From the NCBI GenBank assembly GCA_016784965.1, contig JADHTQ010000028.1, forward strand, positions 1-52,506: a stretch of 52,506 nt of DNA. The letters are read 5' to 3'. How positions within the stretch are numbered: position 1 is the stretch's first letter; the number at the start of each line of letters is the position of its first letter. Made by a program: the position numbers and the translations under genes. Source of the DNA: Bacteriovoracaceae bacterium. Its GTDB lineage: Bacteria; Bdellovibrionota; Bacteriovoracia; Bacteriovoracales; Bacteriovoracaceae. Shown piece by piece: positions 11,962-51,432 of the stretch. The notes under the pieces were generated by a model. It searched no databases. It was given only the letters and a program-made list of their open reading frames with translations, and was not told the origin of the DNA.

Positions 11962-12501
11962 TTATTGATGAGTAATCAGATACTTAGCAAGATTTCCAAA
12001 TTTGAAGCTAAATAGACCTCCAAGTACACTTCCACTCCACCAAATAAAGGCCATTTCTAAGTATACTGGGGCACCAAAAGTAGCAAAAATGGCGATGGAA
12101 ATTGCTCCAAATAGAGGGAAGTAGAGATACTTGTATTTTTTAATACTATTAATTTCAGCAGTAGATAACAGCAAACTAGCAAGCAGGGAACCACTGCCGA
12201 TAAAGAAAAAGCCACAAGCAATCATACAACCGTATGGGCCAAAGCTGTGTACTAAAAAATGAAAGAGGCGTTGATTGTCAAAAAAACCAATCTCAAATTG
12301 AGGACAAAATAACAGTGATGTAATGCCTGCTAAAAAATGTAGAGCCACTAGTTTTAAGATCGTGTACAAAAGAGGAGGATTTAGATCCCTTTGCACTTTG
12401 TTTAAAATAAGGCCTGAGAGCTTGTTTGGTGGATCGATTGGATCGATATGACAAAAGGCCCTAAATTCTTCATGTATCTTTTTGTTATTGTTACCTTCCA
12501 T
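11962..12501 (-). CDS. Multi-TM protein coupled to an ECF sigma factor, putative anti-sigma
   Basis: The 179-residue protein has a ~45-residue cytoplasmic N-terminus (HEEFRAFCHIDPIDPPNK...) and then about four membrane helices (45-66, 88-112, 122-142, 144-166). The gene overlaps the sigma gene by 11 bases, the classic arrangement for a sigma and its membrane anti-sigma. The N-terminus shows no HxxxCxxC zinc anti-sigma motif, so if it binds the sigma it does so differently. I recognise no named domain. The anti-sigma call rests on gene order and topology only. Confidence 0.5.
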   Translation of the reverse strand: MEGNNNKKIHEEFRAFCHIDPIDPPNKLSGLILNKVQRDLNPPLLYTILKLVALHFLAGITSLLFCPQFEIGFFDNQRLFHFLVHSFGPYGCMIACGFFFIGSGSLLASLLLSTAEINSIKKYKYLYFPLFGAISIAIFATFGAPVYLEMAFIWWSGSVLGGLFSFKFGNLAKYLITHQ

Positions 12502-13042
12502 TTCTAATCTCCTTGTTTGAAAAGGCCAAGGATTTCATCCTTTTGATGGCCCGACTTACCAATTGCCGTGCATTTGATGGAGTTGTTTTAAGTTCCATGG
12601 CAATTTCTTCAAAGGAAAAATCATCTGAAAATCTCATCTCTACTGCTTTTTTTTGGTTTTTATTAAGCTTACCAACTAACACTTCTGCGTCTTGGAAGTC
12701 CGTACTAGTGGGTCTGGGTATTGCGTGTATGTCATGAGTATCCGTGGTAAAAGTAACATTATTTTGGTGTTTTGATTCCCTTCTTAAATAATCCACGATC
12801 ACATTTTTGGTGAGAGTAAAAAGCCATGGCAGAAATGGATATTTTTCCTTATAGTTCATGCGAAACCTATGAAATTTTAAAAATACTTCCTGAAAGACTT
12901 CATCTATATTTTGAGCTTTGAGCTTTGATCTGATATAGGCATACACTTTTGCTTTATGTCTATCATAGATAGCATCAAAGGCACCAAAATCGCCATTTTG
13001 ATAGTCTCTCATAAGTAGTTTGTCAGTTTTATCGCTATACAT
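12491..13042 (-). CDS. RNA polymerase ECF-type sigma factor
   Basis: Region 2 spans about residues 15-85 (FDAIYDRHKAKVYAYIRSKL, DEVFQEVFLKFHRF, PWLFTLTKNVIVDYLRRE). Region 4 spans about 125-175, with the helix-turn-helix DFSFEEIAMELKTTPSNARQL and a basic recognition helix. At 183 residues it has ECF size and lacks regions 1 and 3. The start lies ~30 bases after the stop of the His-rich DUF3347 gene, so it may be the sixth gene of the metal-efflux operon. That suggests metal- or envelope-stress-linked transcription. The overlapping downstream gene may restrain it. Confidence 0.88.
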   Translation of the reverse strand: MYSDKTDKLLMRDYQNGDFGAFDAIYDRHKAKVYAYIRSKLKAQNIDEVFQEVFLKFHRFRMNYKEKYPFLPWLFTLTKNVIVDYLRRESKHQNNVTFTTDTHDIHAIPRPTSTDFQDAEVLVGKLNKNQKKAVEMRFSDDFSFEEIAMELKTTPSNARQLVSRAIKRMKSLAFSNKEIRNGR

Positions 13043-13071: not shown

Positions 13072-13623
13072 TTATCCTTTTTTTGTACCACATCCTTTCA
13101 TAGTTGGCATATATGGATTTTTTACTTTGCTATGGGTTTTTTTGCTGTTTTGAATCCACTGCTTATCGGCCATAGAACAGTAATATTCATCGTAATCCTT
13201 GCTGATATTATACATTTTCAAAATATGAACTAGATGGCTTGAAAAGAAGGCATAAAATTTGTTGTTATCTTCTCTTTTACTGGTCGCTTTGATTTTTTCC
13301 AATTTTGGTTTTGACATCATAAGCATGTTTCTGATGGGATCATTTGATATTTTAGATATTGCTTCTACTACAAGCTTTGCATTTTTTTGAACCATTTTAG
13401 CATCGTAATTAAAAAAGGATTGATGCAATTTTTCGTTTAGTTCAAAGACAGTATGAATTTCTTTAAGTTCTTGGGAAGAAAGATCTTTCCTCTTTGGCTT
13501 ATGCGCCATTGTTTTTTGATCATGACTGTGACCGTGACTGTGGTCGTGATGGTCACCTGAGGAATAAACGTAATTAGTTTGCATGGTTAAACAAAAAGTA
13601 AGAGTTATAAATATAAATTTCAT
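13072..13623 (-). CDS. His-rich periplasmic DUF3347-domain protein
   Basis: A signal peptide (FIFITLTFCLTMQTNYVYS) is followed by an HDHSHGHSHD metal-binding run near residues 26-40. The body is helical. The C-terminus reads YYCSMADKQWIQ, then KNPYMPTMKGCG, matching DUF3347 (typically C-P-M...W-L-Q...NPY...M...CG). The family accompanies Cus/Czc systems and probably binds or delivers copper or silver in the periplasm. Its ATG overlaps the stop of the pump gene by four bases, so translation is coupled. The same domain is also fused to the adaptor encoded upstream in this operon. Confidence 0.75.
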   Translation of the reverse strand: MKFIFITLTFCLTMQTNYVYSSGDHHDHSHGHSHDQKTMAHKPKRKDLSSQELKEIHTVFELNEKLHQSFFNYDAKMVQKNAKLVVEAISKISNDPIRNMLMMSKPKLEKIKATSKREDNNKFYAFFSSHLVHILKMYNISKDYDEYYCSMADKQWIQNSKKTHSKVKNPYMPTMKGCGTKKG

Positions 13624-16600
13624 GGGTTCTCCTTTAGCTTGAGGCTTAGGTTAAAGTTGTTATTAAAACGTATCTCTTTTATTAAACAATAAAGTACAGG
13701 CACTACGAATATGGTAATGATAACCAGAAGCATCCCTCCAAAGGATGGAATTGCCATAGGCACCATGACATCAGCTCCGCGACCTGATGAAGTTAAAACC
13801 GGAATGAGTGCTAAAATGGTGGTAGCAGTGGTCATGAGGCATGGTCTTACTCTGCGCACCCCCGCTTGTATAGTTGCTTCGCGGATTTCATGAATTGATT
13901 TTGGAGTATTTTTTAAAAAAACCTGATCTAAGTAGGTAGCGATGATTACACCATTGTCGGAAGCAATGCCAAAGAGTGCTAAAAAACCTACCCAAACAGC
14001 AACACTTAGGTTTAATGGGCGGATTTGAAATAATTCTCTGAGGTTCATACCTAAAAAAGAAAAATCAAAAAACCAAGGTTTACCATAGAGCCACAATAGG
14101 ATAAAGCCTCCTGCCCAGGCGACAACAATTCCTGAAAATACAAGTCCCGTGGTGCTGATATCTTTAAACTGAAAATATAAAATCATAAAAATTATAAATA
14201 GTGCCAAAGGCAAAACGATCATGAGCTTTTTTTCAGAGCGGACTTGATTTTCATAACTTCCAGCAAACGTAAAACTTACCCCGGCAGGTAGTTTAAACTC
14301 ACCACTTTTTATTTTATCATCGAGGTATTTTTTGGATTGATTGACTACATCTACTTCAGCAAATCCAGGTTTTTTATCAAGCAGAACATATCCCACCAAA
14401 AATGTATCTTCGCTTTTGATAACTTGTGGTCCCTGGACGTAATTAATTTTAGAGAGTTGTTTTAGTGGAACTTGAACTCCTCCGGGAGCTGCTACAAGTA
14501 TTTTACCAAGAGCATCGATGCTATCTCTAAGCTCACGTTGATAGCGGACTCGAATAGGATATCTCTCTCTGCCCTCTAAAGTGGTTGAGATTTGTTTTCC
14601 ACCTATTGCTACTTCAATAATATCTTGTACTTGCTTGAGCTTAATACCGTAACGGGCAATTGCTTTTCGATCAATATTGATTTCAAGATAAGGTTTACCA
14701 ACAATTCTATCTGCAAATACAGCAGATGCCTCAACAGATGGAACTTGTTTTAAAAGTTTTTCGATCTGGAACCCAGCAAGTTCTATGGCCTTCAAGGTTG
14801 GTCCTTTAATTTTCACTCCCATTGGAGCACGCATGCCACTTTGAAGCATAACGATTCTTGCACTAATAGGCTGAAGGCGTGGAGCAGAGGTTGTTCCTGG
14901 TATTTTGGTTGCTTTGATGATCTCTTGCCAAATATCATCAGGCTTTTGAATTCCTCTCCAGTAGGACCTACTTGTGTTGATTTTAGGATCAAGGGCCGCT
15001 CGCCACTGTCTAAATGGGATTCCACTTTTGTCTTTAATTAATCTGCCAGACTTATCTCTGATGTATTTTCCATGTACCATGTATGGTCTGCCATCAGGGG
15101 CAAGTAGTTCATTTCCCGAAAAGTCTTTTACTGTTTCTGTTTGATCTGGATTGTACTTAAATTTTATACGATTTCCGTTTTTATCTACAACATACTTTGG
15201 TTTGTAATTAATAATTGTTTCAATCATAGAAATTGGAGCAGGGTCTAGAGGTGTCTCTGCTCTTCCCAGTTTTCCTACCACAGAGTCAATTTCAGCAATA
15301 TTATCAAGTCTGATGTCCTGTTTAACCAGCACATCCATTGACTCACTGATTGAGGCGTGAGGCATGGTCGTTGGCATATACAGGTACGAGCCCTCATCAA
15401 GAGGAGGCATAAACTCTTTGCCAAGTCCTGGAAAAGAGTGGGCAATGTAAGAAATGGGAGCAAAAGAGCGCAAAGACCTTGGTAGCCATCCAAAAAAGGT
15501 ATCAAAGCCAAGCCAGGTAAAACTACCAAGAACTATGATAAAAGTCGGCAAGATTAAAAATTTGCCCTTATTATCCAGGCACCACCTAAGAAGTGACTCA
15601 TAAATATTTTGAAAATAAAAGATTAGACCTAAAAGGATACCAATTAACGAGGAAACTAAAATAAAGTTTAGGATAAATCCTTTCTCTGGACCAAGTGGCA
15701 ACCAATGACCAGTTAGTATGTAAGTAACAATTAGCACTGCAAGTCCATTGGTGATGAGTGATCTATTTTGACGTAACACAGTTGGCATTTTTTCTTCTAG
15801 CCACTTAAACAATGAAAATCTAGAAGTTTTTTTATTGCCAAACAAGATAAGGGCAACAGATGGAATGATTGTTAAAGCGACTATAATAGATGCTAAAAGC
15901 GCAAAAGTTTTAGTAAAGGCCAAAGGTCGAAAGAGCTTCCCCTCAGCGGCTTCCATAGTAAAAACAGGTAGGAAGCTGACAATAGTTGTGGAAACTGCTG
16001 TTAATATGGCGCTACCAACTTCTGCTGTAGCATTAAAAATTATGTCGCGTTTGCTCACACCAGTAGGCGCTTGATCTAAATGTTTTATTATATTTTCACA
16101 CACCACTATCCCCATATCAACTATGGTGCCAATGGCAATCGCAATGCCAGAAAGGGCCACAATATTGGCATCAACTCCAAAGTTCTTCATAGCAATAAAG
16201 CACATTAAAACAACCAGTGGTAGCGAGCCAGTAATCAGCATTGAGCTTTTAAAATTCATGAGCATCACTAGAATGACAATAATTGTTATTAAAATTTCTT
16301 CGGTGAGAGCATTTTTTAAAGTGCCCAAGGTCTCGTAAATAAGTCCCGACCTATCATAGAAAGGAACAACCTTAACCTGGCTGACAGTACCGTCTGCTAA
16401 AGTTTTTTTAGGAAGTCCTGGTGAGATCTCTTTGATTTTTTTCTTCACATTTTTGATAGCTGCCAGCGGATTATCACCATACCTTGCAACTACAACCCCT
16501 CCTACTGCTTCGGCTCCTCCCTTATCGAGGGCTCCTCGACGAAGGGCAGGACCCAAGCCGACTTTGGCGACATTTTTAACGTAGATTGGAACATTGCTAT

Positions 16601-17432
16601 TCATCTTTATCACAGAGTTTTCCACATCCTCTATGGATTTAAAAAAGCCAATACCGCGAATAAGATATTCGACCTTGTTGACCTCAATTGTTCTGGCACC
16701 AACATCTAAGTTTGCCTGTTTTATGGCCATTACAACTTCTTGTAAGTTAACCTTATAGGCCCTAAGGGCATCTGGATCTACATCGATCTGATACTCTTTT
16801 ACAAAACCTCCAATTGAGGCAACTTCACTAATGCCGTCTGCTGAGAGTAGTCCATACCTTACATACCAATCTTGAATGGTTCTAAGCTCGTGCAAATCCC
16901 ACCCACCGGTTTGATTACCATTTTCATCTTGTCCTTCCAGTGTATACCAAAAAATTTGCCCCAAAGCAGTGGCATCGGGGCCAAGGGTTGGACGCACCCC
17001 TCCTGGGAGTACTCCCATAGGGAGGCTACTTAGCTTTTCTAGAACTCTGGATCTGGACCAGTAGAAATCGATTTTTTCTTTGAAGATCACATAGATAGTG
17101 GAAAATCCAAGCATTGAATAGCTACGAATAGTTTTAACTCCTGGAATCCCTAGAAGTGAAACGGTTAAAGGGTATCCGACCTGGTCTTCAATGTCTTGAG
17201 GGGATCTTCCCATCCATTTGGTAAATACAATCTGTTGATTTTCTCCAATGTCAGGAATGGCATCAACTGGTACTGGGTCGCGAGGAAGTCCTCCGACATC
17301 CCAATCAAAAGGGGCAACCATAACCCCCCAGCCAAGAATAAAAATGGTAGCAATAATTACCAAAATGGTATTATCAAGGCAAAACGCGATGGTCTTTGGT
17401 ATCAATCCTTTAGTTTCGTTTAAATTATCCAT
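13620..17432 (-). CDS. cusA: CusA/CzcA-type heavy-metal efflux RND pump
   Basis: Inner-membrane proton-driven pump that exports heavy-metal ions through a tripartite complex. RND hallmarks: IPDIGENQQIVFTKWMGRSP near the N-terminus, GIAIAIGTIVDMGIVVCENI in the proton-relay helix 4 region, and GIASDNGVIIATYLDQ in the second half. TMPHASISES lies in the periplasmic pore domain. The 1270 residues exceed the usual ~1040. There is an insertion of about 100 residues at ~740-840 (KPKYVVDKNGNRIKF, RQWRAALDPKINTSRSYWRG) and extra hydrophobic segments at ~555-660. It follows the adaptor gene by 12 bases. Metal specificity is inferred as Cu/Ag from the DUF3347 and HMBD partners. Confidence 0.88.
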   Translation of the reverse strand: MDNLNETKGLIPKTIAFCLDNTILVIIATIFILGWGVMVAPFDWDVGGLPRDPVPVDAIPDIGENQQIVFTKWMGRSPQDIEDQVGYPLTVSLLGIPGVKTIRSYSMLGFSTIYVIFKEKIDFYWSRSRVLEKLSSLPMGVLPGGVRPTLGPDATALGQIFWYTLEGQDENGNQTGGWDLHELRTIQDWYVRYGLLSADGISEVASIGGFVKEYQIDVDPDALRAYKVNLQEVVMAIKQANLDVGARTIEVNKVEYLIRGIGFFKSIEDVENSVIKMNSNVPIYVKNVAKVGLGPALRRGALDKGGAEAVGGVVVARYGDNPLAAIKNVKKKIKEISPGLPKKTLADGTVSQVKVVPFYDRSGLIYETLGTLKNALTEEILITIIVILVMLMNFKSSMLITGSLPLVVLMCFIAMKNFGVDANIVALSGIAIAIGTIVDMGIVVCENIIKHLDQAPTGVSKRDIIFNATAEVGSAILTAVSTTIVSFLPVFTMEAAEGKLFRPLAFTKTFALLASIIVALTIIPSVALILFGNKKTSRFSLFKWLEEKMPTVLRQNRSLITNGLAVLIVTYILTGHWLPLGPEKGFILNFILVSSLIGILLGLIFYFQNIYESLLRWCLDNKGKFLILPTFIIVLGSFTWLGFDTFFGWLPRSLRSFAPISYIAHSFPGLGKEFMPPLDEGSYLYMPTTMPHASISESMDVLVKQDIRLDNIAEIDSVVGKLGRAETPLDPAPISMIETIINYKPKYVVDKNGNRIKFKYNPDQTETVKDFSGNELLAPDGRPYMVHGKYIRDKSGRLIKDKSGIPFRQWRAALDPKINTSRSYWRGIQKPDDIWQEIIKATKIPGTTSAPRLQPISARIVMLQSGMRAPMGVKIKGPTLKAIELAGFQIEKLLKQVPSVEASAVFADRIVGKPYLEINIDRKAIARYGIKLKQVQDIIEVAIGGKQISTTLEGRERYPIRVRYQRELRDSIDALGKILVAAPGGVQVPLKQLSKINYVQGPQVIKSEDTFLVGYVLLDKKPGFAEVDVVNQSKKYLDDKIKSGEFKLPAGVSFTFAGSYENQVRSEKKLMIVLPLALFIIFMILYFQFKDISTTGLVFSGIVVAWAGGFILLWLYGKPWFFDFSFLGMNLRELFQIRPLNLSVAVWVGFLALFGIASDNGVIIATYLDQVFLKNTPKSIHEIREATIQAGVRRVRPCLMTTATTILALIPVLTSSGRGADVMVPMAIPSFGGMLLVIITIFVVPVLYCLIKEIRFNNNFNLSLKLKENP

Positions 17433-17444
17433 CGGTACGATCCT

Positions 17445-19412
17445 CTATTTTTTTTCACCACAGGTTAACATTGATTGTCCGTAATATGGATTTAATGTTG
17501 AGTCAGATTCTTGAAGCCAAAAGGCCCCCGAACCAAATGCCATTGGGCAGAAGAAGCGGTTTGTTTTCACTTTGCCACTAGTACCTAATGACTCTACGGC
17601 AATTATTAAAGCATCAGAGATAACCTTAAAGTGCTCTCTACCTTTTGTAATATCACCAGCTTTCATCAACTGACTTGCTCCACTTGTCAAATCCTTCAGA
17701 AGCGGCATCCATTTATTATGAGCTTCACCTTTTAATAAGGACATATCGACTTGCTCAAGAGATTTTAAAAAGGCAGTAGACATTTTTGAAACTTCTTTAA
17801 ATTTATCTTCTGTTAGTGCCTTATGTATTGAGTAATAATTTAAAATAACTTGGTCTAACTGTTTTTTAAACTCACTTGCTGTGCTTAAAGCGGTTGCTGT
17901 CTTTTTGCTCTTTTGTTTAACTTGGTTCATCATACTAGGTTTTGCCATTAGCTGGGCGCTACTGTCGATTTTAAAATTGCCATTGACGACAACCATTTCA
18001 TTTTCTTTGAGGCCCTCTAGGACAACATAGTGATCTCCAACTTTTGGTCCAAGTGTAATCTGACGGCCGACATACTTACCCTCACCTAAAGAGACATATA
18101 CTACCGCTCTTTGACCAGTGATAAGCGGAGCAGTAGCTGGTATTACCAGCGGTGGAGTTAGGTCATGATCATGTTTGATATATCCTAAACTGGTAGTTGG
18201 AACGAGGTCCATTCCACACACAGGGCAAGTATGGTCTTCATCTGCATCTTTATCTTTTAGAATTTCTGGGTGCATAGGGCAGACTAGCTTGTCTGCGAGT
18301 GACTCATCCATGACCACCCCATCAGTTGTTACTTTTGAAAATATTTTGGCGTGGACAAACATTCCTGGTCGAAATTTTCCTTCTTTATTTTCAACGGTGA
18401 CTCTAACCTTAATAGTTTGAGTTTTGGAGTTTAACACCGGATCGATGAATGATATGGTTCCTTTAAAAACTACTCCTGGAGAACTTTCAGTATAAAATTC
18501 TACAAGTTGGCCATATTTTATAAACTCAATATCTGACTCATATACATCTAGCTTTACCCAAAGGTGAGATAAATCAGCTATGCTGTAGATTTTACTTCCG
18601 GTTTTAACATACATTCCTTCTTGAACGTGCTTTTTAATGACCACTCCTCCCACAGGAGCGTAGACGGTCATTCTATTGGAGGTCTTCTTTCTTTTTTCAA
18701 TCTCTTTGATCTGCTTATCTGAAAAACCCCAAAGTCGAAGCTTACTTCGAACGTTATTTACAGTTTCTTTGGTGAGTTTTCTGATACCAGAATAATTACT
18801 TCTTGAGATATTTTTTGCCGCTTTTTTTGCCTGCAAGAGTTCTTCTTGGGCTGCTAGAATTTCAGGGCTATAAATTTGCACCATATGGTCACCTTTATTT
18901 ACCCGTACACCTGTGTAGTTAACAAAAAGGCGCTCAATTCTACCTGGAAACCATGCTGCGATATGTGCCTGTCTAGTTTCATCAAACGCAATTTTGCCCA
19001 CCACTTTAATTTCAGTAGACAGAAGCTCTCTTTTTACTGGCACACTTTGTATTTCTGCTAATTTTATTGCTTGCTTACTAAGCTTTACAGTGTATCCTTC
19101 ACCCTCATCATTATCGTCACCCGTTTCTGCTGGAATTAAGTCCATACCACAAATTGGGCATTTGCCTGGTTTGCTCTCTCTGATGTTAGGATGCATCGAA
19201 CAGGTCCACACCTCGGCTTTCACTTTATTTGAGGTTGAAATATCATTGGTTACGTGATCATGCCCACGGTGTGGATCATCTGTACCACCTACAATTAGAC
19301 CACCAAACAATCCCAAGGCCATAGAACAACCGATGATTATAAGGATCATTTTATAATTGTTACTTTTGCATAATTCTTTTAAATAATTAAGTAGCTCTTT
19401 TATATTTTTCAT
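17445..19412 (-). CDS. cusB: CusB-type periplasmic adaptor with two metal-binding domains and DUF3347 tail
   Basis: Membrane-fusion protein linking the RND pump to the outer-membrane channel. Order: one membrane anchor (~22-42), a His/Asp linker (DDPHRGHDH), a first heavy-metal binding domain at ~69-94 (C71, H74, C85, C88; WTCSMHP...CPICGMD), barrel-sandwich and coiled-coil hairpin (~110-260), then beta-barrel (~270-365). A second heavy-metal domain follows at ~378-404 (CPMHPEIL...CPVCGMD), then the membrane-proximal domain, and a C-terminal DUF3347 (~510-655, ending FFCPMAFG, WLQ, NPYYGQSMLTCG). Usual CusB is about 400 residues; here 655 because of these metal modules. It sits between the channel and pump genes in one operon. 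Confidence 0.88.
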   Translation of the reverse strand: MKNIKELLNYLKELCKSNNYKMILIIIGCSMALGLFGGLIVGGTDDPHRGHDHVTNDISTSNKVKAEVWTCSMHPNIRESKPGKCPICGMDLIPAETGDDNDEGEGYTVKLSKQAIKLAEIQSVPVKRELLSTEIKVVGKIAFDETRQAHIAAWFPGRIERLFVNYTGVRVNKGDHMVQIYSPEILAAQEELLQAKKAAKNISRSNYSGIRKLTKETVNNVRSKLRLWGFSDKQIKEIEKRKKTSNRMTVYAPVGGVVIKKHVQEGMYVKTGSKIYSIADLSHLWVKLDVYESDIEFIKYGQLVEFYTESSPGVVFKGTISFIDPVLNSKTQTIKVRVTVENKEGKFRPGMFVHAKIFSKVTTDGVVMDESLADKLVCPMHPEILKDKDADEDHTCPVCGMDLVPTTSLGYIKHDHDLTPPLVIPATAPLITGQRAVVYVSLGEGKYVGRQITLGPKVGDHYVVLEGLKENEMVVVNGNFKIDSSAQLMAKPSMMNQVKQKSKKTATALSTASEFKKQLDQVILNYYSIHKALTEDKFKEVSKMSTAFLKSLEQVDMSLLKGEAHNKWMPLLKDLTSGASQLMKAGDITKGREHFKVISDALIIAVESLGTSGKVKTNRFFCPMAFGSGAFWLQESDSTLNPYYGQSMLTCGEKK

Positions 19413-19434: not shown

Positions 19435-20715
19435 CTAGAGTGTCTTTCCAACTAACATTTCTATGTAGGCAAAATGCTTAAACCTTTGAGCAAGGGCCTT
19501 GTGATATAAAAGCTCAAACTCAATTAATGCCCTTTGAGCATCAATTAAACTTAAAAAATTTACTTTTCCCGCTTCAAACGATTGTTGAGTGACACCTAAG
19601 GACTGTTTGCTTTTTGGAATTAGGGTATGTCGATATAAATTAATTTTTCGTTGTGAGTCTTTAAACTTATATATCGACATTTGAAGCTCGGCCCTCAGGT
19701 TATTTGCTCGCTGTGCTTTTTTATTTACTATCCATTGATGGCGATTAACAGACTCCTGTACACCTCCGTTGTATTTTGAAAACCACATTGGAATGTTGAT
19801 TGAGACCGATAATGCAAGTGGGTCCTTCCCACTGTCTTTTGTAACCATCATGGAATCGTCGGTTTCAATGTAGTTAATTCCAAATGTGAAGTCTGGAAAA
19901 TAGTTCTTCTTTGAAAGAGCAATGGAAAACTTTTCTTTGCTAATCTTGTGGTTCATAGATTGCAACTGCGGATTATTATCTAGAAGTGCTTTGAACAGAT
20001 CAGCGTCTTTTAGTACAATCTTATTTTTAGGAATTGTTTTAGGCCAAGCAATTGGCTCAGTTTGGGGTCTATTTAAAGCGGCATTAATCTTTGCGACCAA
20101 TGGGGCCTTAAACTCCTGTAGTGACTTCAGTTTATTCTCTAATTTACCAAATTCTACCTGGGACCTTATGATCGAAGAATGTGGAGCTCTTCCAGCTTTA
20201 TATTTAGTCCTGGCAACACTTTCAAAGTATTTGACTAACTCCATGTTATGTTTGGTGGTCTGGATTGCTTTTGACGTATAATAGTATTCACCGTAAAGAC
20301 TTTTAATTTTATAGAAAAGTTTAAGTTTCTTTAATTTAAAATCAAGTTGCAGCGCTTTGGCACCTTCTTTGGCCATATCCTCTTTTAAACCAAGTTTGCC
20401 AAACCAAGGAAGCTTCTGCATTAAGCCAAATTTTCTCTTTTGTGGTCCAACTCGGGTTTCAACATTTTCAATGAATTGTGTATAGGTAAACTTTGGATCG
20501 GGTAGTCCCCTCACTCGGTTAATTTTAAAAACAGCAGATTGCCACTTATAAAAAGCGGCCTTTAATTCCTGATTGTTGAGTGCCGCATACTTTAAATAGT
20601 CTGATAAATCTTTAAGCTCAGAAGCAGGGACTTGAATTGAAATTACAATAAAAATAATAAAAAATATATATTTAGTTAAAAACATGTATTGGTCCCGTAA
20701 AATTGTTAATTTCAT
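19435..20715 (-). CDS. TolC-family outer-membrane efflux channel (CusC-like)
   Basis: Outer-membrane channel of the tripartite metal exporter. The 426-residue protein has a signal peptide (YIFFIIFIVISIQVPASE) and two repeated long-helix coiled-coil halves (about 35-210 and 230-420). DYLKYAALNNQELKAAFYKWQSA opens the first half and SFEAGKVNFLSLIDAQRALIE is the typical OEP C-terminal helix. There is no lipobox. The ATG at 20715 has AGAGGTAA nine bases upstream; an ATG ten codons later would also give a signal peptide. That ribosome site lies inside an inverted repeat (20722-20755). The adaptor gene follows 22 bases downstream. Confidence 0.85.
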   Translation of the reverse strand: MKLTILRDQYMFLTKYIFFIIFIVISIQVPASELKDLSDYLKYAALNNQELKAAFYKWQSAVFKINRVRGLPDPKFTYTQFIENVETRVGPQKRKFGLMQKLPWFGKLGLKEDMAKEGAKALQLDFKLKKLKLFYKIKSLYGEYYYTSKAIQTTKHNMELVKYFESVARTKYKAGRAPHSSIIRSQVEFGKLENKLKSLQEFKAPLVAKINAALNRPQTEPIAWPKTIPKNKIVLKDADLFKALLDNNPQLQSMNHKISKEKFSIALSKKNYFPDFTFGINYIETDDSMMVTKDSGKDPLALSVSINIPMWFSKYNGGVQESVNRHQWIVNKKAQRANNLRAELQMSIYKFKDSQRKINLYRHTLIPKSKQSLGVTQQSFEAGKVNFLSLIDAQRALIEFELLYHKALAQRFKHFAYIEMLVGKTL

Positions 20716-20721
20716 ATATTG

Positions 20722-20755
20722 TTACCTCTTGATATTTAATACGTTCAAGAGGTAA
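20722..20755 (-). promoter_or_regulatory. Perfect 11-bp inverted repeat covering the efflux-channel ribosome site
   Basis: TTACCTCTTGA (20722-20732) and TCAAGAGGTAA (20745-20755) are exact reverse complements separated by 12 AT-rich bases. On the minus strand the arm nearer the channel gene contains AGAGGTAA, its only good ribosome site, so a folded transcript would hide it. No T tract follows, so it is not a terminator. It may instead, or also, be a dimeric repressor or activator operator. Confidence 0.6.
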
Positions 20756-20803
20756 AATTTGTGACAAAAATATTTTATGTATAAAGAGTTTATTCAATTA
20801 TGG

Positions 20804-21187
20804 TTATAGAAGATCGATGACATTTTTTAGTTTGTCTCTAACCTCTGTTGCAATACCAAATAAATCTTCATTTTTAATAGCACTCATAGATGCAATTGGA
20901 TCAACCGCAGCAACTTCAATGTTCCCATTGTCTAATTCTCGCACTATTACATTACAAGGAAGCATCGTTCCAATGTGAGGTTCAGCACTCAAGGCCTTAT
21001 GGGCAAATCCGGGATTGCAGGCACCTAAAATTTGGTACTTGGGAAAATCCACATCTAGTTTTTCCTTAAAGGATTTTGTAATATTTATTTCAGTGATTAT
21101 ACCAAATCCCTCAACTTTTAGTTTTTCAGTAACAAGGCCAATTGCATCTTCAAACTGCCCTTTTATCTCTTTTTTGAAGTAGTACAT
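20804..21187 (-). CDS. DUF302 domain-containing protein
   Basis: The 127-residue cytoplasmic protein matches DUF302: an opening DAIGLVTEKLKVEGFGIITE, then KYQILGACNPGFAHKAL (the conserved LGACNP block), then GTMLPCNVIVRE and VAAVDP. The two cysteines in those blocks are conserved in the family. DUF302 proteins are often found with metal efflux or sulfur genes, but have no established activity. AAGAGGAG lies six bases before the ATG. It is the first gene of the minus-strand efflux region, 88 bases before the channel gene. Confidence 0.82.
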   Translation of the reverse strand: MYYFKKEIKGQFEDAIGLVTEKLKVEGFGIITEINITKSFKEKLDVDFPKYQILGACNPGFAHKALSAEPHIGTMLPCNVIVRELDNGNIEVAAVDPIASMSAIKNEDLFGIATEVRDKLKNVIDLL

Positions 21188-21203
21188 ATTTATCTCCTCT
21201 TAA

Positions 21204-21231
21204 TCTGTATGTGTACAGAAGGTGCTTCTGT
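21204..21231. promoter_or_regulatory. Overlapping inverted repeats upstream of DUF302, possible operator
   Basis: ACAGAAG (21215-21221) and CTTCTGT (21225-21231) are exact inverted copies around GTG. A second pair, TCTGTA (21204-21209) and TACAGA (21214-21219), overlaps it. They lie 17-44 bases before the DUF302 start, in the divergent region shared with adk. This fits a dimeric regulator site for the metal operon, but no regulator gene is in the window. Confidence 0.4.
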
Positions 21232-51374: not shown

Positions 51375-51400
51375 ATTATATTTTTAATAAATTTACTTAA

Positions 51401-51432
51401 GGCGAGAATTTAACGAATTCTCGCCTTTTTTT
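51401..51432 (+). terminator. Rho-independent terminator
   Basis: GGCGAGAATT (51401-51410) pairs exactly with AATTCTCGCC (51416-51425) around a five-base loop and is followed by a run of T to 51432. It closes the secreted-protein gene ending at 51374. Confidence 0.9.

Follow-up and report, generated by a model that had tools for sequence, protein, structure and literature searches.

Our analysis indicates that the sequence between the DUF302 gene and tolC in the window, by which we mean the whole 52,506-nucleotide stretch of Bacteriovoracaceae DNA analysed here, is very probably the promoter of a tolC-cusB-cusA-cargo-ECF-membrane protein operon, and that a perfect inverted repeat overlapping this predicted promoter may well silence the efflux channel gene in RNA that reads through from upstream. 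This silencing role is put forward tentatively, and the explanation as a whole, in which a promoter fed by the operon's sigma factor is combined with a read-through silencing hairpin, is held with the same caution.

The efflux operon and its predicted promoter

The operon lies on the minus strand, and its genes either overlap slightly or lie no more than 29 bp apart. Its content agrees with the metal-efflux context that a first-pass annotation of this DNA had given to the repeat. The genes considered here are the following:

20804..21187, minus strand: DUF302 gene, same direction as the operon, possible source of read-through RNA
19435..20715, minus strand: tolC/OEP outer membrane efflux channel, first gene of the operon
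17445..19412, minus strand: cusB-like periplasmic adaptor with heavy-metal-binding domains
13620..17432, minus strand: cusA/czcA-family RND pump (TIGR00914 above cut-off)
13072..13623, minus strand: His-rich secreted cargo protein (LIC13259-like, but weakly so and below cut-off)
12491..13042, minus strand: gene of the ECF sigma factor that probably reads the promoter (Sigma70_r2 and r4_2; motif present at homologues)
11962..12501, minus strand: membrane partner and candidate anti-sigma factor, in which C66, C92 and C96 are invariant

The DUF302 gene runs in the same direction as tolC and ends 37 bp before the predicted -35 element, and no terminator was detected between the two genes. DUF302 was considered as a regulon member and rejected, as the gene occurs in few relatives and is not preceded by the ECF motif in the form searched. 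A small palindrome, CTGTACACATACAG, lies directly before it (21200-21225, minus strand) and is a possible operator. For tolC, an in-frame ATG at 20685 offers an alternative start which, if used, would weaken the role of the SD located in the repeat.

The elements of the intergenic sequence, in minus-strand order, are:

20758..20766, minus strand: predicted ECF -35 element TGTCACAAA, a family-wide motif
20745..20755, minus strand: left (5') arm of the repeat, TTACCTCTTGA, entirely inside the promoter spacer
20733..20744, minus strand: loop ACGTATTAAATA, containing the predicted -10 element
20738..20743, minus strand: predicted ECF -10 element CGTATT, a family-wide motif
20729..20737, minus strand: predicted transcription start zone, placed by the usual geometry of ECF promoters
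20722..20732, minus strand: right (3') arm of the repeat, TCAAGAGGTAA, bearing the tolC SD (AAGAGG)

The repeat is as perfect as first described, with 11-bp arms that are 100% complementary and a 12-nt loop. The forward strand reads TTACCTCTTGA at 20722-20732 and TCAAGAGGTAA at 20745-20755, and the minus-strand order is TTACCTCTTGA-ACGTATTAAATA-TCAAGAGGTAA-CAATAT-ATG. The earlier placement of the ribosome site in the stem was also correct, the right arm on the minus strand holding AAGAGGTAA at 6 nt 5' of the ATG at 20715, and neither a T tract, whose absence had been reported, nor a terminator was detected at the repeat.

The first-pass annotation had missed the ECF-type promoter motif that overlaps the repeat, TGTCACAAA-N14-CGTATT. 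A scan for sigma-70 promoters found none on the minus strand. The motif was first spotted by eye in the comparison with the closest relative, genome G056, whose tolC is 62% identical, and the tests were done afterwards. TGTCAC-N17-CGTA precedes the cus operon in both genomes, and the genome-wide pattern TGTCAC-N16-18-CGTA gave 4 sites in the genome of the window and 3 in G056, against 24 and 20 for the reversed control. A second copy of the promoter in G056 (L031, G056:C37:86578-86603, plus strand) stands before the gene of a His/Met-rich secreted protein, a likely regulon member.

Homologues of the operon's ECF sigma factor were gathered across the phylum. Of 29 relatives, 24 have the motif ahead of the ECF sigma gene, a count that describes the closest homologues and not the whole family, because the loci (L034-L063) were those with the best matches to the sigma factor. 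At the loci of these homologues a second copy of the motif often precedes a neighbouring gene, and among 23 proteins encoded behind such copies, the TolC of the window included, 12 match OEP and 1 matches a metal-sensing repressor. Loose matches to the motif numbered 53, versus 4 for the reversed pattern. Conservation extends to bases that were not part of the search pattern: TGTCAC is followed by A in 50/50 promoters, by a further A in 45 and by a third in 38, and a T stands two positions after CGTA in 39 of the 50. The sequence of the spacer, in turn, varies across the family.

The ECF sigma factor and its membrane partner

The sigma factor is a protein of 183 aa in which Sigma70_r2 and Sigma70_r4_2 score above cut-off; it consists of regions 2 and 4 only, has zero cysteines, and carries no C-terminal extension or domain after region 4. 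A TGTCACA -35 element of the ECF41 type is present in 50/50 family promoters. By the features tested the sigma factor is neither an ECF41 nor a CorE-like protein, because it has neither the extension nor a cysteine-rich tail.

The gene of the membrane partner adjoins the sigma gene on the same strand in 30/30 loci, and the partner was found in 190 of the 369 genomes searched in the phylum, about half. Its invariant residues are C66, Q68, F69, C92 and C96. The protein (11962-12501, minus strand) represents an uncurated family with invariant cysteines in CxQF and C-x3-CG motifs; its structural model is all-helical and confident (pLDDT 93.8), and sequence and fold searches returned no match in Pfam, NCBIfam or the PDB. 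From the gene pairing and the content of the regulon, we infer that the partner is a candidate anti-sigma factor whose cysteines would sense metal. The sigma/partner pair of G056 is encoded on a different contig from the cus operon, which nevertheless retains the promoter, an arrangement that fits action in trans.

Among open-licence papers, we found none on this sigma/anti-sigma pair. It is conceivable, although we hold this with reserve, that the elements described here belong to a widespread and apparently undescribed metal-response system, made up of the ECF sigma factor, a novel three-cysteine membrane anti-sigma factor, efflux promoters of the form TGTCACAAA-N14-CGTAT, and a lineage-specific silencing hairpin. 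If this reading is true, the channel of the pump would be translated only from RNA made by the operon's own sigma factor. The conserved promoter provides a direct, testable regulon for the sigma/membrane-protein pair.

Possible roles of the inverted repeat

In the mechanism that we propose, metal stress would be sensed through the membrane partner and the sigma factor would be freed, and the operon-encoded sigma factor would then read its own promoter, giving positive feedback. RNA starting downstream of the -10 element (20743-20738) would be missing the left arm and its SD would be open, while RNA reading through from DUF302 would contain both arms, form the hairpin and bury the SD. In this way the repeat would keep unscheduled read-through transcripts from expressing the efflux channel, on the model of gene e of phage T4.

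Because the whole left arm falls between the -35 and -10 elements and the loop contains the -10, RNA from the predicted promoter would have no left arm, whatever its exact start, and the hairpin is therefore possible only in RNA reading in from DUF302. The leader made from the predicted promoter would be at most 22 nt long, which is within the range of the relatives; mapped ECF41 promoters have leaders of 22 and 23 nt (PMC3426412). When the two RNAs were folded in silico, the SD of the read-through RNA had an unpaired probability of 0.00 and an opening cost of 13.5 kcal/mol, and that of RNAs starting at 20736-20729 had an unpaired probability of about 0.65 and an opening cost of about 1.7 kcal/mol. 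The effect of read-through makes the window an outlier among 32 family promoters (9.4 kcal/mol, the next value being 5.4 and the median 1.5). Seven other family promoters with an upstream ORF in the same direction showed no SD-hiding effect of read-through.

It is also quite possible, though we think it somewhat less probable, that the ECF promoter is real and the repeat a coincidence, a variable spacer that happens to complement the SD and has no function. The spacer is not conserved in the family, and repeats as long as this one, taken by themselves, are common. In the window there are 2 perfect repeats (arms of at least 11 bp, loop of 3-30) versus 0.63 per dinucleotide shuffle, and in 225 kb of the genome, a sample that extended the window by about 173 kb of extra sequence and was complemented by pattern searches, there are 11, or about 1 per 20 kb. 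By these counts the bare repeat is not exceptional and is barely above chance. Elsewhere in the window, at 51399-51427, a perfect 12-bp inverted repeat with TTTTT after it resembles an intrinsic terminator.

Coverage of an SD by a stem is rarer than the bare repeat. A stem of more than 5 bp covers the SD in 1 of the 70 SD-led genes of the sample, namely tolC, and when the intergenic sequence was shuffled 3000 times around a fixed promoter and SD, an 11-bp SD stem never arose (0 of 3000), which, like the window having the largest read-through effect of the 32 promoters, speaks against coincidence. An 11-bp SD stem also arose in 1 of 30 shuffled sets of SD-led genes, and the window-wide significance is only modest, because the interval was picked post hoc among many genes. 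That SD-hiding stems are a general habit of this genome was considered and rejected, none beyond that of tolC being seen among the 70 genes. At L069 (14650-14720 of G000:C102), in the same genome, another long inverted repeat pairs with an AAGGAG ribosome site, which precedes the start ATG of a short ORF that appears to be broken.

The comparison with relatives also favours coincidence. The inverted repeat is absent from G056, though the promoter motif TGTCACAAA...CGTAT is kept there with an equal TGTCAC-CGTA spacing of 17 nt, and no stem longer than 6 bp occurs at the other family promoters, all from genomes outside the genus. Covariation, which the first-pass annotation had suggested as a check, thus lends no support to a conserved RNA structure, and a search of GTDB contigs for close tolC relatives gave only 23-31% identity, too distant for a comparison of leaders. 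Since the other promoters tested have no such repeat, the hairpin is particular to this lineage and possibly due to chance.

That the repeat is a DNA operator, with a dimeric regulator bound to the arms over the spacer and start site and blocking the ECF promoter, appears improbable to us. Its perfect symmetry, with arm centres 23 bp apart, and its position over the -10 element and the predicted start would suit such a regulator. The genome-wide search that had been recommended, however, found a single copy of the repeat in the 4.59-Mb genome even when as many as 3 mismatches were allowed, the repeat is absent from the promoters of relatives, and the ECF sigma factor is the only DNA-binding regulator among the window proteins scanned, which were a part of all ORFs.

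Least probable of all is that the hairpin acts in the operon's own mRNA as an RNA switch or thermosensor, as the first-pass annotation had proposed: the stem does hide the SD, and its folding energy weakens from -17.2 kcal/mol (20 C) to -9.8 kcal/mol (50 C), as that of any stem would, but with a conserved ECF -10 element in the loop the operon's predicted mRNA misses the upstream arm, and thus the arms cannot serve this purpose on it, the hairpin is still strongly folded at 42 C, a covariance search of the window against Rfam at gathering thresholds gave no match, and the repeat is conserved neither in G056 nor at other family promoters. Transcription beginning within the repeat had been named as evidence against that proposal, and such a start is what the promoter motif predicts. 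From the earlier account, then, the SD in the stem, the missing T tract and the metal-efflux operon are retained, and control of the operon's transcript by a switch or thermosensor finds no support.

Comparison with known systems

The predicted promoter resembles that of ECF41 sigma factors, TGTCACA-n16-CGTC, in its TGTCACA -35 element, its similar spacing and an ECF-type -10 element with CGT (PMC3426412). In contrast to ECF41, the 183-aa sigma factor described here lacks a large C-terminal (SnoaL-like) extension, its -10 element is CGTA(T), its partner is a separate membrane protein, and its probable targets are metal-efflux genes in place of the carboxymuconolactone decarboxylase-type genes that ECF41 targets. 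With the CorE-like copper ECF sigma factors of Myxococcus xanthus (PMC8999054) it shares a tie to metal homeostasis, but it has no C-terminal cysteine-rich domain, and the invariant cysteines are found in the membrane partner instead.

For the silencing hairpin, the closest parallel is gene e of T4, where a hairpin buries the SD of the longer RNAs but not that of RNAs from the late promoter; the T4 genes soc, 49 and I-TevI also have SD-hiding hairpins, whose 5' strand is omitted by the late promoters (PMC3014915). As in gene e, the read-through RNA is predicted here to hide the SD, and RNA from the proximal promoter to be without the 5' strand of the stem. Unlike gene e, the genes concerned form a cellular metal-efflux operon read from an ECF promoter rather than a T4 late promoter, and the arrangement, predicted here from sequence, is absent from G056 and from the other family promoters. 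The present case suggests that a repeat pairing with an SD should not be named an RNA switch until the promoter has been located. If the hairpin works as proposed, the efflux operon would be translated only from RNA that its own sigma factor had initiated, a principle already known from the T4 genes.
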